Assembly (NCBI GenBank): GCA_023150615.1
Contig: JAKLKO010000003.1
Location: forward strand, 186,001-250,000
Direction of reading: 5' to 3'
DNA from: Phycisphaerae bacterium
GTDB taxonomy: Bacteria > Planctomycetota > Phycisphaerae > UBA1845 > UTPLA1
DNA length: 64,000 nucleotides
Shown here in pieces: positions 23,274 to 52,023 of this stretch. The notes under the pieces are model-generated. The model was not told the DNA's origin. It made no database searches and saw only the letters and a program-made list of their open reading frames with translations. Position 1 is the stretch's first letter; each line of letters begins with the position of its first letter. The translations under genes and the position numbers were made by a program.

Positions 23274-23686
23274 CCGCGGGCATCGCTTGAGCGTGGAGGA
23301 CCGCAAGTCTAAGTGGCCCGGAACGGATCGGAGTTCCATCATCGTGCGTGGCCCCGGATGAGCGCAGTCGGGGACCGGAAGGGCATGCTAACGCGCGGCG
23401 TGTGGGCCGGCGTTGATCGCGATACGTCGCGATGGCGCGTGGCCTCGAAAAGCCCGCGAGTGGTACCGAGTCGTGCCAAGTGCGCCACCTTCGGGAACCC
23501 CTGTAAGACTGTGGGCTCTTCTGGTTACATGAAACTCATAACCAATTTGTGCAAATCAGTTTACGATCGCGAAACTCGCAGGAGAATCGTCGACTTGTCG
23601 CCGAAAAGCGCTTGAATCCGTACCGTTTCAGTGCTAAATTTCCGCAGCGGCGAAGACGGGTTCCTTCGCCGGGCGACGAGGATCAC
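23274..23686. other. Divergent intergenic region upstream of the ISC operon
   Basis: There is no gene in this roughly 410-base stretch. From 23505 to 23640 it is AT-richer than its surroundings. It holds an imperfect palindrome GGTTACATGAAACTCATAACC-like at 23523-23543, an AATTTGTGCAAAT stretch at 23544-23556 and the Rrf2 promoter at 23612-23640. Regulation by the Rrf2 protein itself is plausible. Confidence 0.5.
23612..23640 (+). promoter_or_regulatory. Promoter of the Rrf2-isc operon (TTGAAT-17-TAAATT)
   Basis: TTGAAT at 23612-23617 and TAAATT at 23635-23640 are separated by exactly 17 bases and stand about 46 bases before the GTG start. This is one of the clearest sigma-70 promoters in the window. 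Confidence 0.7.
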
Positions 23687-47926: not shown

Positions 47927-47951
47927 GTTCGGAACCCCTTTTCTTTTGCTA

Positions 47952-48060
47952 TCGCACAAATTCTAACGCATAATTGCGAAAAAGTCATCTCAAAAATAAC
48001 TGTATCATGCTTATTTACAAAGACTTACGCCGAGATTCGATAATTTGTGCGAGTGCACAA
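47952..48060. promoter_or_regulatory. Divergent phaR/phasin operator-promoter region
   Basis: A perfect 11-bp inverted repeat, TCGCACAAATT (47952-47962) and AATTTGTGCGA (48042-48052), lies in an AT-rich intergenic stretch. On the minus strand the left copy is preceded by TAGAAT (47965-47960); on the plus strand the right copy follows GATAAT (48039-48044). Each copy therefore sits just after a possible -10 for its own gene. The right copy also forms TTGTGC-N4-GCACAA (48045-48060). The layout fits autorepression of phaR and repression of the phasin gene by PhaR. Confidence 0.6.
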
Positions 48061-48150
48061 AAATCTGTTGCTTTCCGACCGGGCGACCGATACACTTTCT
48101 CCAGACGGATGCGGAAGTTCGAGCACCGTCCGAGACAGGAGTGTAATCCC

Positions 48151-48686: not shown

Positions 48687-48732
48687 AGCGCCGGGATGAC
48701 TTGCGCGAGCCGCGTCCCGGCGCTTTTTCTTT
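48687..48732 (+). terminator. Rho-independent terminator after the phasin gene
   Basis: AGCGCCGGGA (48687-48696) and TCCCGGCGCT (48715-48724) make a perfect 10-bp stem with an 18-base loop, followed by TTTTCTTT. It separates the phasin gene from phaE/phaC. Confidence 0.85.
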
Positions 48733-48820: not shown

Positions 48821-49333
48821 GTGTCCACCTCACCGAACGCCTCCGCCGGTCCGTTCGATCCCGTCATGAAGTTCTGGCAGGACCTGTGGGCACAGGCCAC
48901 GTCCGCGATGCCCTCGGCCACACCGCCGCCCGCGCCGGCGCCCGAACTGCTCGCACAGATGCGACGCGCCTTCTTCGACGCCATGGCCCGCTTCTGCGAT
49001 GACTACATGCGGTCTCCGCAGTTCCTCGACATGATGAAGCAGACCATGGACAACGCGCTCGCGTTCCGAAAGCAGCTCAACGAGTTTCTGGCCGGCGCCT
49101 TGCACGCCTCTCAGATGCCTACGCAGGACGACACCGGCGAGGTGCTGGAAACGCTCCACGCCATCGAATCCCGGGTGCTGCAGCGAGTGGAAGAGCTGAG
49201 CCACCGGATCGCGGCTCTCGAACGCCGCAAGTCCCCCGCCTCCAACGGCGCCGGGCGCGGACGGGCCGCACGACGTACCGCTCGAACGCGACGTTCCGTT
49301 CGAGCCGCCGCGAAATCCGGCCGCGCCCGCTGA
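48821..49333 (+). CDS. phaE: Class III PHA synthase subunit PhaE-like
   Basis: The 170-residue protein is the partner subunit of class III PHA synthase. It starts PFDPVMKFWQDLWAQATSAM and has helical blocks FFDAMARFCDDYMRSPQFLD and LETLHAIESRVLQRVEELSH typical of PhaE. The C-terminus is very basic (RRTARTRRSVRAAAKSGRAR), perhaps for granule or nucleic-acid contact. PhaE proteins are usually longer (about 350 residues), so this is a short form. The GTG follows AGGAG. phaC starts 38 bases downstream. Confidence 0.75.
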   Translation: MSTSPNASAGPFDPVMKFWQDLWAQATSAMPSATPPPAPAPELLAQMRRAFFDAMARFCDDYMRSPQFLDMMKQTMDNALAFRKQLNEFLAGALHASQMPTQDDTGEVLETLHAIESRVLQRVEELSHRIAALERRKSPASNGAGRGRAARRTARTRRSVRAAAKSGRAR

Positions 49334-49371: not shown

Positions 49372-50478
49372 GTGACGCAGACCCAGACGATGCCGTTTCC
49401 CTGGTTCGGCACCCATCCGTTCACGCCCGACGTGCAGGGGTTCTTCGAACGCCTCATGGCGCTGCCGAAGATCATGGAGATCGCGCGGCGCATTCCCAAG
49501 GGATGCACGCCCTCGGAGATCGTCTATGAAGAGGACAACCTCCGCCTCTTGCGCTACACGTGGGGACCGGAGAAGAAGTACGCCACGCCGCTGCTGATCG
49601 TCTTCGCTCTCGTCAACCGTTCCTACATCCTCGATCTGATGCCGGCCAAGAGCGTCGTGCGGCATTTCCTCCGCGCCGGCTTCGACGTCTATCTCATCGA
49701 CTGGGGAGTGCCGACCTACGGCGACCGGCACGTCGGGCTCGAGCGCTACATCGAGACGTACCAGCACAACGTTGTCGATTACATCCGCGAGCGCACCGGC
49801 CAGGAGCAGATCAACCTGATGGGCTACTGCATGGGCGGAACCATGTCCGCCATGTACGCCGCGCTGCATCCGGACCGCATCAAGAACCTCATCCTGATGA
49901 CCGCGCCGATCGACTTCTCGCAGCGCGAGAGCCTCCTGTCGCTCTGGTCCGACGAGCGCTACTTCGACGTGGATTCGTTCGTCGAGGTCTTCGGTAACGC
50001 GCCGCCGCAGTACCTCCAGTTCAACTTCCAGCTCCTCAAGCCGGTCACCAACTTCGTCGAGAAGTACTTCAACTTCTACGAGAAGATGACGGACGAAAGA
50101 TTCCTTGAGGAATTCATCGCCATGGAGCAGTGGGTCAACGACAACATCCCCGTTGCCGGCGAGACCTTCCGCCAGTTCGTCCGCTACGGCTTCCAGCAGA
50201 ACCTGCTCATCAAGAACCAGTGGCCCATCGGCCGCAAGCGCGTCAACCTTCGCAACATCGCCTGTCCCGTTCTCAATCTCATGGCCACCGCTGACCACCT
50301 CGTTCCGTGCGGCCAGAGTCGCGGCTTCAACGACCTCGTCGCATCCAAAGACCGCACGTCGATCGAGTTCCCCGCCGGGCACATCGGCCTGGCCGTGGGA
50401 TCGAAGGCGCAGGCCGAGCTCTGGCCGAAGGCCTGCGACTGGCTCGCCCAGCGCTCCGACCCGCTCGACGACGAATAG
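49372..50478 (+). CDS. phaC: Class III polyhydroxyalkanoate synthase PhaC
   Basis: The enzyme polymerises hydroxyacyl-CoA. The 368-residue length and the absence of the long class I N-terminal domain indicate class III, which needs PhaE. The lipase-box-like nucleophile motif is GYCMGG with Cys153. The Asp is in ATADHLVP and the His in PAGHIGLAVG. The conserved Trp block is seen as YLIDWGVPTYGDR. GGGGAGA precedes the GTG start. Together with phaE, phaR and the phasin-like gene it forms a compact PHA locus; the precursor genes phaA/phaB are not in the window. Confidence 0.95.
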   Translation: MTQTQTMPFPWFGTHPFTPDVQGFFERLMALPKIMEIARRIPKGCTPSEIVYEEDNLRLLRYTWGPEKKYATPLLIVFALVNRSYILDLMPAKSVVRHFLRAGFDVYLIDWGVPTYGDRHVGLERYIETYQHNVVDYIRERTGQEQINLMGYCMGGTMSAMYAALHPDRIKNLILMTAPIDFSQRESLLSLWSDERYFDVDSFVEVFGNAPPQYLQFNFQLLKPVTNFVEKYFNFYEKMTDERFLEEFIAMEQWVNDNIPVAGETFRQFVRYGFQQNLLIKNQWPIGRKRVNLRNIACPVLNLMATADHLVPCGQSRGFNDLVASKDRTSIEFPAGHIGLAVGSKAQAELWPKACDWLAQRSDPLDDE

Positions 50479-50577: not shown

Positions 50578-52023
50578 GTGTGGTCTCGACGATTCGCGCC
50601 GCTCCTGACGGCGGCCATGCTCGTGAGCGGCTGCGCTGCGACGATCATGCCGCCGGACCTCGGCGGACTGTATTCGCGCGCGGCCGCGTCCAGCGACGTG
50701 GATCGAAACCCGGTGATTGTGATCCCGGGAATCCTCGGCAGCCGGCTGGTCGATGGCGAGTCGGGCCGCGTCGTCTGGGGTGCGTTCGGCGGCGGCTACG
50801 CGAATCCGCAGACGCCTGACGGCGCGCGGCTCGTCGCGCTGCCGATGCGATCCGGCGCCGCGCTGCATGAATCGCGCGATGAGGTGCAGCCCTCCGGCGT
50901 GCTCGACCGAGTTCGGCTCGATTTGCTCGGCCTGCCGATCGAGCTGCAGGCCTACACCAACATCCTCGCCACGCTCGGCGCGGGCGGATACCGCGATGAG
51001 CTGCTCGGCCGCAGCGGCGCGGTCCGCTACGGCGATCAGCACTTCACCTGCTTTCAGTTCGACTATGACTGGCGGCGCGACAATGTCGAGAACGCCGGCC
51101 GACTGCACGAGTTCATCGTCGAGCGACGCAACTACCTCCGCTCCATCTACCGCAACAAGTTCAACCGGGCCGACGCCGATGTGAAGTTCGACATCGTCGC
51201 GCACTCGATGGGCGGACTGGTCGCCCGCTACTTCCTGCGCTACGGCGATGCCGACCTGCCGGCGGATGGGTCGGCCCCGCCGATCACATGGGCCGGCGCG
51301 ACGTTCGTCGAGCGCGTCGTGCTTGTCGGAACGCCGAATGCCGGCTCGATCCACGCCCTCGACGAACTGGTGAACGGCGCGCAGATCGCCGGCGTCCTGC
51401 CGCGGTATGACGCGGCCATCGTCGGGACCATGCCGTCGGTGTACCAGCTCCTGCCCCGCGCGCGGCACGGCTGCGTCGTCGATGCCTCTGACAACAAATC
51501 GATCATCGGAGATCTCTTCAACCCGGTGCTCTGGGAGCGTCTCAACTGGGGGCTCGCATCGCCGCGGGCCGACCGCTGGCTGCGCGAACTGCTGCCCGCG
51601 GTCATCGAACCCGATGCGCGACGCAGGATCGCCCTCGAACACCAGCGCAAGTGCCTCGAGCGGGCCGCGCAGTTCGCCGCCGCGCTTGACGCGCCCGCCG
51701 AACCACCCGCCGGCATCGAGCTCTACCTGTTCGCCGGCGACGCGGTGCCGACCGACGCCGTCGCATCGGTGAACGCATCAACGGGTGAAATCCGGATGAT
51801 CCGGCGACAACCGGGCGACGGCACCGTGCTGCGAAGCAGCGCGCTGATGGACGAGCGCCTCGCGCTGGGCTGGTCGCGAAAGATTGTCTCGCCGATCCGC
51901 TGGACGGGCGTCACGTTCCTTTTCGAGGATCACCTCGGCCTGACGCGCAGCCCGATCTTCGCCGACAACGTGCTCTACCTGCTGCTCGAAGGGCAGCGCT
52001 CAAAACGGGCGGCTGGTTTATGA
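50578..52023 (+). CDS. LCAT-like alpha/beta-hydrolase lipoprotein
   Basis: The 481-residue protein has a lipoprotein signal (LLTAAMLVSGCAA, lipobox VSGC), so it is probably anchored in a membrane facing the periplasm or surface. The mature part has the LCAT-family start VIVIPGILGSRLV and nucleophile motif AHSMGGLVAR. Lecithin:cholesterol acyltransferase-type enzymes move or hydrolyse acyl chains of phospholipids; a bacterial role in acyl-ester hydrolysis is likely but the substrate is unknown. GTGGAGG precedes the GTG start. Its place behind phaC hints at, but does not prove, acyl-polymer or lipid turnover. Confidence 0.8.
   Translation: MWSRRFAPLLTAAMLVSGCAATIMPPDLGGLYSRAAASSDVDRNPVIVIPGILGSRLVDGESGRVVWGAFGGGYANPQTPDGARLVALPMRSGAALHESRDEVQPSGVLDRVRLDLLGLPIELQAYTNILATLGAGGYRDELLGRSGAVRYGDQHFTCFQFDYDWRRDNVENAGRLHEFIVERRNYLRSIYRNKFNRADADVKFDIVAHSMGGLVARYFLRYGDADLPADGSAPPITWAGATFVERVVLVGTPNAGSIHALDELVNGAQIAGVLPRYDAAIVGTMPSVYQLLPRARHGCVVDASDNKSIIGDLFNPVLWERLNWGLASPRADRWLRELLPAVIEPDARRRIALEHQRKCLERAAQFAAALDAPAEPPAGIELYLFAGDAVPTDAVASVNASTGEIRMIRRQPGDGTVLRSSALMDERLALGWSRKIVSPIRWTGVTFLFEDHLGLTRSPIFADNVLYLLLEGQRSKRAAGL

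Follow-up and report, generated by a model that had tools for sequence, protein, structure and literature searches.

The region between a phaR-like gene and the phasin gene divergent from it raises the question of whether one regulator governs both genes, and through which DNA sites. The locus lies in a stretch of 64,000 nucleotides (hereafter the window), which is part of a 4.1-Mb genome whose PhaR relatives belong to Phycisphaerae and other Planctomycetota. The intergenic region is 224 bp long with a G+C content of 44%, against 68% for the window. An original prediction, made from the sequence letters, had placed one copy of a perfect 11-bp inverted repeat directly after a -10-like hexamer on each strand, and proposed that a single regulator, most simply PhaR, acts on both genes. 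The features of the locus are collected in Table 1.

Table 1. Features in and around the phaR–phasin intergenic region (window coordinates)
Feature	Position	Strand	Remarks
phaR, predicted PHA-responsive regulator, 202 aa	47318-47926	-	PF07879 and TIGR01848 scores
O1, TTTTGC-TATC-GCACAA, predicted operator	47944-47959		1 mismatch from TTGTGC-N4-GCACAA
Left arm of 11-bp repeat	47952-47962	+	inside and beside O1
Predicted phaR -10, TAGAAT	47960-47965	-	consensus match only
Predicted phaR -35, ATGACT, 17-bp spacer	47983-47988	-	consensus match only
O3, degenerate copy (3 mismatches of 14) of CGTAAC-N4-T-N7-A-N4-GTTACG	48001-48029		conserved in relatives
Right arm of 11-bp repeat	48042-48052	+	inside and beside O2
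O2, TTGTGC-GAGT-GCACAA, predicted operator	48045-48060		perfect dyad, conserved in relatives
Predicted phasin-gene -35, TTGCTT, 7 bp after O2	48068-48073	+	conserved promoter geometry
Predicted phasin-gene -10, TACACT, 17-bp spacer	48091-48096	+	TATACT in many relatives
Phasin-like granule protein, 154 aa	48151-48615	+	homologues divergent from phaR in 41 loci
Terminator-like hairpin and T-run 3′ of phasin gene	48687-48728	+	-26.6 kcal/mol, z -3.5
Possible second PHA synthase subunit (PhaE/Bacillus-PhaR-like)	48821-49333	+	TIGR02132 21.5 bits, far below cut-off
Class III PHA synthase PhaC	49372-50478	+	TIGR01836 413 bits, above cut-off

The phaR product contains the PF07879 (PHB_acc_N) DNA-binding domain at residues 12-67 (8.5e-22; 77.5 bits against a cut-off of 25). 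Its score with the TIGR01848 PhaR equivalog model was 90.1 bits, below the curated cut-off of 109.45, and the protein is therefore named PhaR-like through its domain, its place in the tree and its context rather than as an equivalog. The polymer-binding domain PHB_acc gave no match in the C-terminal part of the protein even at E up to 10, which, together with the TIGR01848 score, leaves polymer sensing without support from the sequence. An AlphaFold model was confident only at approximately residues 11-70, and a PDB fold search returned no solved or structurally similar protein (best E 0.21), so that there is no structural account of the 4-bp operator spacer described below.

For the phasin-like protein, Pfam matches were only sub-threshold (PF05597, 17.4 bits against a cut-off of 28.8) and NCBIfam gave no phasin match; its name thus reflects context and weak similarity. 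Those of its relatives that were tested likewise had no Pfam or NCBIfam match at cut-off. Since a stable hairpin with a T-run, missed by the consensus terminator scanner (loop limit 8), lies 3′ of the phasin gene, the gene may form its own transcription unit. The candidate synthase subunit gene is kept beside the phasin gene in relatives, and phaR is encoded in conserved synteny with the class III PHA synthase and phasin-like genes. An LCAT-like alpha/beta hydrolase is encoded at 50578-52023, 3′ of PhaC.

The 11-bp inverted repeat is present as described, with the arms TCGCACAAATT and AATTTGTGCGA. Within the 64-kb window, repeats of this length with a gap of at most 110 bp numbered five, compared with 4.65 in block shuffles, so the repeat by itself proves nothing and the 11-bp identity was rejected as the signal; in shuffles of the phaR–phasin intergenic region alone, the same repeat gave P = 0.0034. 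The right copy forms the dyad TTGTGC-N4-GCACAA, as the original prediction had it, and the 4.1-Mb genome contains no exact match other than this site (O2). The left copy, which had been taken for a lone half-site, turned out to be half of a second full dyad (O1) with one mismatch, whose TATC spacer begins with T and departs from the RNNY rule of the other sites. The proposed hexamer before each copy was borne out on the minus strand, where TAGAAT, with ATGACT 17 bp upstream of it, directly abuts O1, and O1 should therefore cover the phaR start site. It did not hold on the plus strand: relatives do not keep the -10-like GATAAT before O2, so a phasin promoter on that side of O2 was rejected, and the conserved promoter lies 3′ of O2. 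TGC/GCA half-site dyads are thus present at both the phasin and the phaR promoter.

We compared the intergenic regions of relatives, drawing on 17 genomes of the family, 114 of the order and an alignment-based scan of public contigs for PhaR relatives, which together yielded 54 distinct phaR loci. The results showed that TTGTGC-N4-GCACAA with at most one mismatch occurs upstream of phaR in 31 of the 53 loci other than the window (0.04 in shuffles), and with at most two mismatches in 45 of the 53 (0.86 in shuffles). No match was obtained in the 53 upstream regions for spacers of 2, 3, 5 or 6 bp at one mismatch. In 43 of 49 loci, a sigma70-type promoter started 6-8 bp beyond the dyad, the distance being exactly 7 bp in 33 of them, compared with 17% for shuffled sequences. 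The shorter core YGC-N4-GCR was found near phaR in 14 of the 16 loci of the window's family set (3.1 in shuffles) and in 11 of the 27 other loci (3.8 in shuffles), other spacers being rarer. The dyad is therefore the part of the repeat that is conserved, and the AATT flank falls outside it; the dyad is kept at a fixed promoter geometry, tracks the phasin gene, and occurs for the most part in genomes that have phaR.

In approximately a dozen relatives outside the window's family (L028, L029, L031, L035, L040, L041, L044, L088 among them), a second, weaker dyad lies 21-24 bp after O2 and overlaps the phasin -35 box; it is absent in the window.

The proposal of one regulator for both genes thus passed the comparative tests, with its anatomy partly redrawn. 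We consider that O1 and O2 are probably PhaR-dimer sites through which PhaR would repress both phaR itself and the phasin gene divergent from it, repression being relieved by PHA granules, and we give this reading a probability of roughly 0.83. In cells without storage polymer, PhaR would occupy both O2, which adjoins the phasin -35 box, and O1, which overlies the predicted start site of phaR, and would keep both promoters low. As PHA granules form, PhaR would be drawn onto the polymer and both promoters would open, and once phasin coats the granule, PhaR would be displaced back to the DNA. We infer PhaR as the binder, repression as the effect and polymer as the signal from the studied proteobacteria, in which the PhaR binding sites are dyads that occupy the same positions in the promoters (PMC12849132; PMC12542648; PMC10888616) and from whose literature the granule step is taken (PMC12849132). 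Since the layout is like that of the repressed phasin promoters of Ralstonia eutropha and Sinorhizobium meliloti, repression of both genes by PhaR appears most likely.

The sign of the effect is not certain, since PhaR of R. eutropha can also activate, as it does at phaP3 through sites located upstream (PMC12849132). The centre of O2 falls near -50 relative to the predicted phasin start, on the upstream side of the -35 box, a position that would also suit a PhaR that mainly activates the phasin gene, or that does both depending on the granule state. This appears unlikely, as BS1 of R. eutropha, a site immediately upstream of the phaP1 -35, is part of a repressed promoter (PMC12849132), and the S. 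meliloti AniA sites that flank the -35 boxes of phaP1 and phaP2 are also at repressed promoters (PMC12542648). Moreover, the weaker second dyad of the dozen or so relatives overlaps the -35 box itself, and O1 comes directly after the phaR -10.

The dyad goes along with the phasin gene when that gene has another position. Besides the 41 loci in which the phasin gene is divergent from phaR, seven have it downstream of phaR on the same strand, where a dyad is found just before it. In two genomes (G008 and G013), the phaR locus lacks both a phasin gene and a strong dyad; a gene-blind, genome-wide pattern scan located the dyad before unlinked phasin genes of these genomes, with the same promoter geometry. 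The strict pattern TTKTGCRNNYGCACAA was matched in 49 of the 54 genomes with PhaR and in 7 of the 60 without (Fisher 1e-18, kinship not corrected for), leaving five PhaR genomes without a match and seven matching genomes without a detected PhaR as exceptions. These seven, and the fact that PhaR is put forward as the binder from sequence and analogy, would be in keeping with some other regulator that binds the dyads, PhaR being only a neighbour. However, the strong association of the dyad with the presence of phaR, and the TGC/GCA half-sites common to the studied PhaR sites, including TTGTGC-GGC-GCACAA of S. meliloti, make this distinctly improbable. That the repeat arose by chance in A+T-rich intergenic DNA and has no function, which would agree with the ordinary frequency of such close 11-bp repeats in the window, is very unlikely and the least credible reading of all, given the conservation, the blind genome-wide scan, and a dyad, spacer and promoter distance that are fixed across genera sharing ~31% identity between O1 and O2.

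Strict matches number one to three per genome in the window's family, unlike S. meliloti with its dozens of predicted targets. Looser sites (two mismatches) in the window's genome amounted to 94, against 148 for the reversed control, and a large PhaR regulon was rejected for this genome as there is no excess of such sites outside the PHA locus. G014 and G016 have an extra site, which overlaps the promoter of a conserved gene for acetyl-CoA acetyltransferase, the kind of enzyme with which PHB synthesis starts.

Individual sites were noted in passing. At positions 1501-1516 of loci L143 and L145, from two related genomes, a PhaR-type dyad overlaps the -35/spacer part of an acetyl-CoA acetyltransferase promoter. 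At the same positions of L139 and L149 (genomes G010 and G011), a dyad is kept although its letters differ, inside promoter-like sequence upstream of an elongation-factor-G-like gene. One genome (G078) had 13 strict matches compared with about one in most genomes, which hints at an expanded regulon.

How far the proteobacterial logic extends to this lineage was a question that the original prediction had raised. The PhaR–phasin pair appears to be shared, but the logic is not a plain copy: the strong sites of the window's clade have a half-site spacer of 4 bp instead of the 3 bp of the proteobacterial TGC/GCA operators. In R. eutropha (Cupriavidus necator) H16, a PhaR-domain regulator acts on TGC/GCA dyads, with the motif YTKNTGCRNYGCANMAR and a 3-bp spacer as opposed to TTGTGC-RNNY-GCACAA here; one site is directly upstream of the phasin -35, as in the window, whereas the start-site one is on phaP1 itself (PMC12849132). 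This PhaR is reported to repress its own gene too (PMC12849132; PMC3570403). Unlike in R. eutropha, phaR and the phasin gene are divergent here with one intergenic region in common, and a class III PhaC is encoded downstream. The AniA (PhaR) regulon of S. meliloti has the palindrome YGC-RNY-GCR with A/T-rich arms, and in its target TTGTGC-GGC-GCACAA the half-sites are identical to those of O2 across a 3-bp spacer (PMC12542648). Similarly, PhbF of Herbaspirillum seropedicae has TG-N-TGC-N3-GCAA sites, again with 3 bp, at phaP1 and phbF, both of which were repressed in a reporter test (PMC3206438). The boxes of Bradyrhizobium diazoefficiens (NGC-N3-GC[GA], two of which flank the phaP1 -35; PMC10888616) and Rhodobacter sphaeroides (CTGC-N3-GCAG; PMC12542648) also have 3-bp spacers, with arms that are not of the TTG/CAA form.

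Among 13 plasmid-borne proteobacterial phasin promoters, the best dyad score exceeded 4 in seven, and several had no recognisable dyad. The spacer in these seven was 3 bp in four, 6 bp in two and 2 bp in one, and 4 bp in none; one of the two spacer-6 cases (L189) includes a TGC-N3-GCA core. According to a quick PhaR tree (135 columns, midpoint-rooted, SH-aLRT support only), the PhaR sequences of the strong-N4 loci belong to one 55-row branch with an SH-aLRT of 95, made up of Phycisphaerae, Isosphaeraceae and two Verrucomicrobiota. Outside this branch, strong N3 sites were present in two planctomycete loci, a perfect one in L166 and one accompanied by a slightly weaker N4 site in L171. As strong N4 sites are confined to a single branch, the spacer change appears to have happened once, on modest evidence. 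With its half-sites 4 bp apart instead of 3, the operator would require the dimer to present its two DNA-contacting parts differently.

The distance between the two operators is also held. In the window's family, the O1–O2 centre distance is 99.7 bp (sd 1.3), and an O1 core was found 97-103 bp upstream of O2 in 12 of 13 loci (0.06 in shuffles); the spacing between O1 and the phaR start codon ranges from 18 to 92. The sequence between the operators is only ~31% identical, indicating conservation of length rather than of sequence. Most O1–O2 distances in another family (f8) are 88-89 bp, shorter by about one helical turn; L032, at 93 bp, is off this pattern. The helical-phase statistic R was 0.73, a value that treats related loci as independent although they form two main clusters. 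A difference of one turn fits looping or a shared complex, and with as few as two clusters of related genomes it is only suggestive. A combined scenario, in which the PhaR clade of Phycisphaerae, Isosphaeraceae and Verrucomicrobiota switched from a 3- to a 4-bp spacer and its operator pair forms a higher-order complex or loop, is one that we regard as doubtful; in the looping reading, such a complex would be the reason why distances of ~100 and ~89 bp are held.

A third palindrome of 29 bp (O3) lies between O1 and O2, is unrelated to their dyad, and is conserved in many relatives. Its right half-site is located 19-24 bp upstream of O2 in L007, L008, L044, L046, L088 and others, a nearly fixed distance. 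In the window's genome, this palindrome occurs at 27 places with at most two mismatches, compared with 5 for the control, one of them at window positions 23537-23565. It is enriched genome-wide in nearly all of the 114 order genomes, with or without phaR, and mostly between genes.

Our literature search found PhaR control of phasins in proteobacteria only and none in planctomycetes (subscription papers were mostly outside the search), no PhaR binding or expression data for the Phycisphaerae/planctomycete lineage, and no description of the N3 to N4 change in operator geometry. We therefore regard the PhaR–phasin autoregulatory pair as a well-supported prediction: the type of circuit is known, we found no report of it for this lineage, and what would be new is the one-base change in its operator geometry. 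The prediction thereby carries the circuit into a further part of the bacterial tree, one with a class III synthase. It also poses the question of how a DNA-binding domain without a solved relative shifted its half-site spacing by one base pair, and the O1/O2 operator pattern may be used to search uncultured planctomycetes for PHA-regulated genes.
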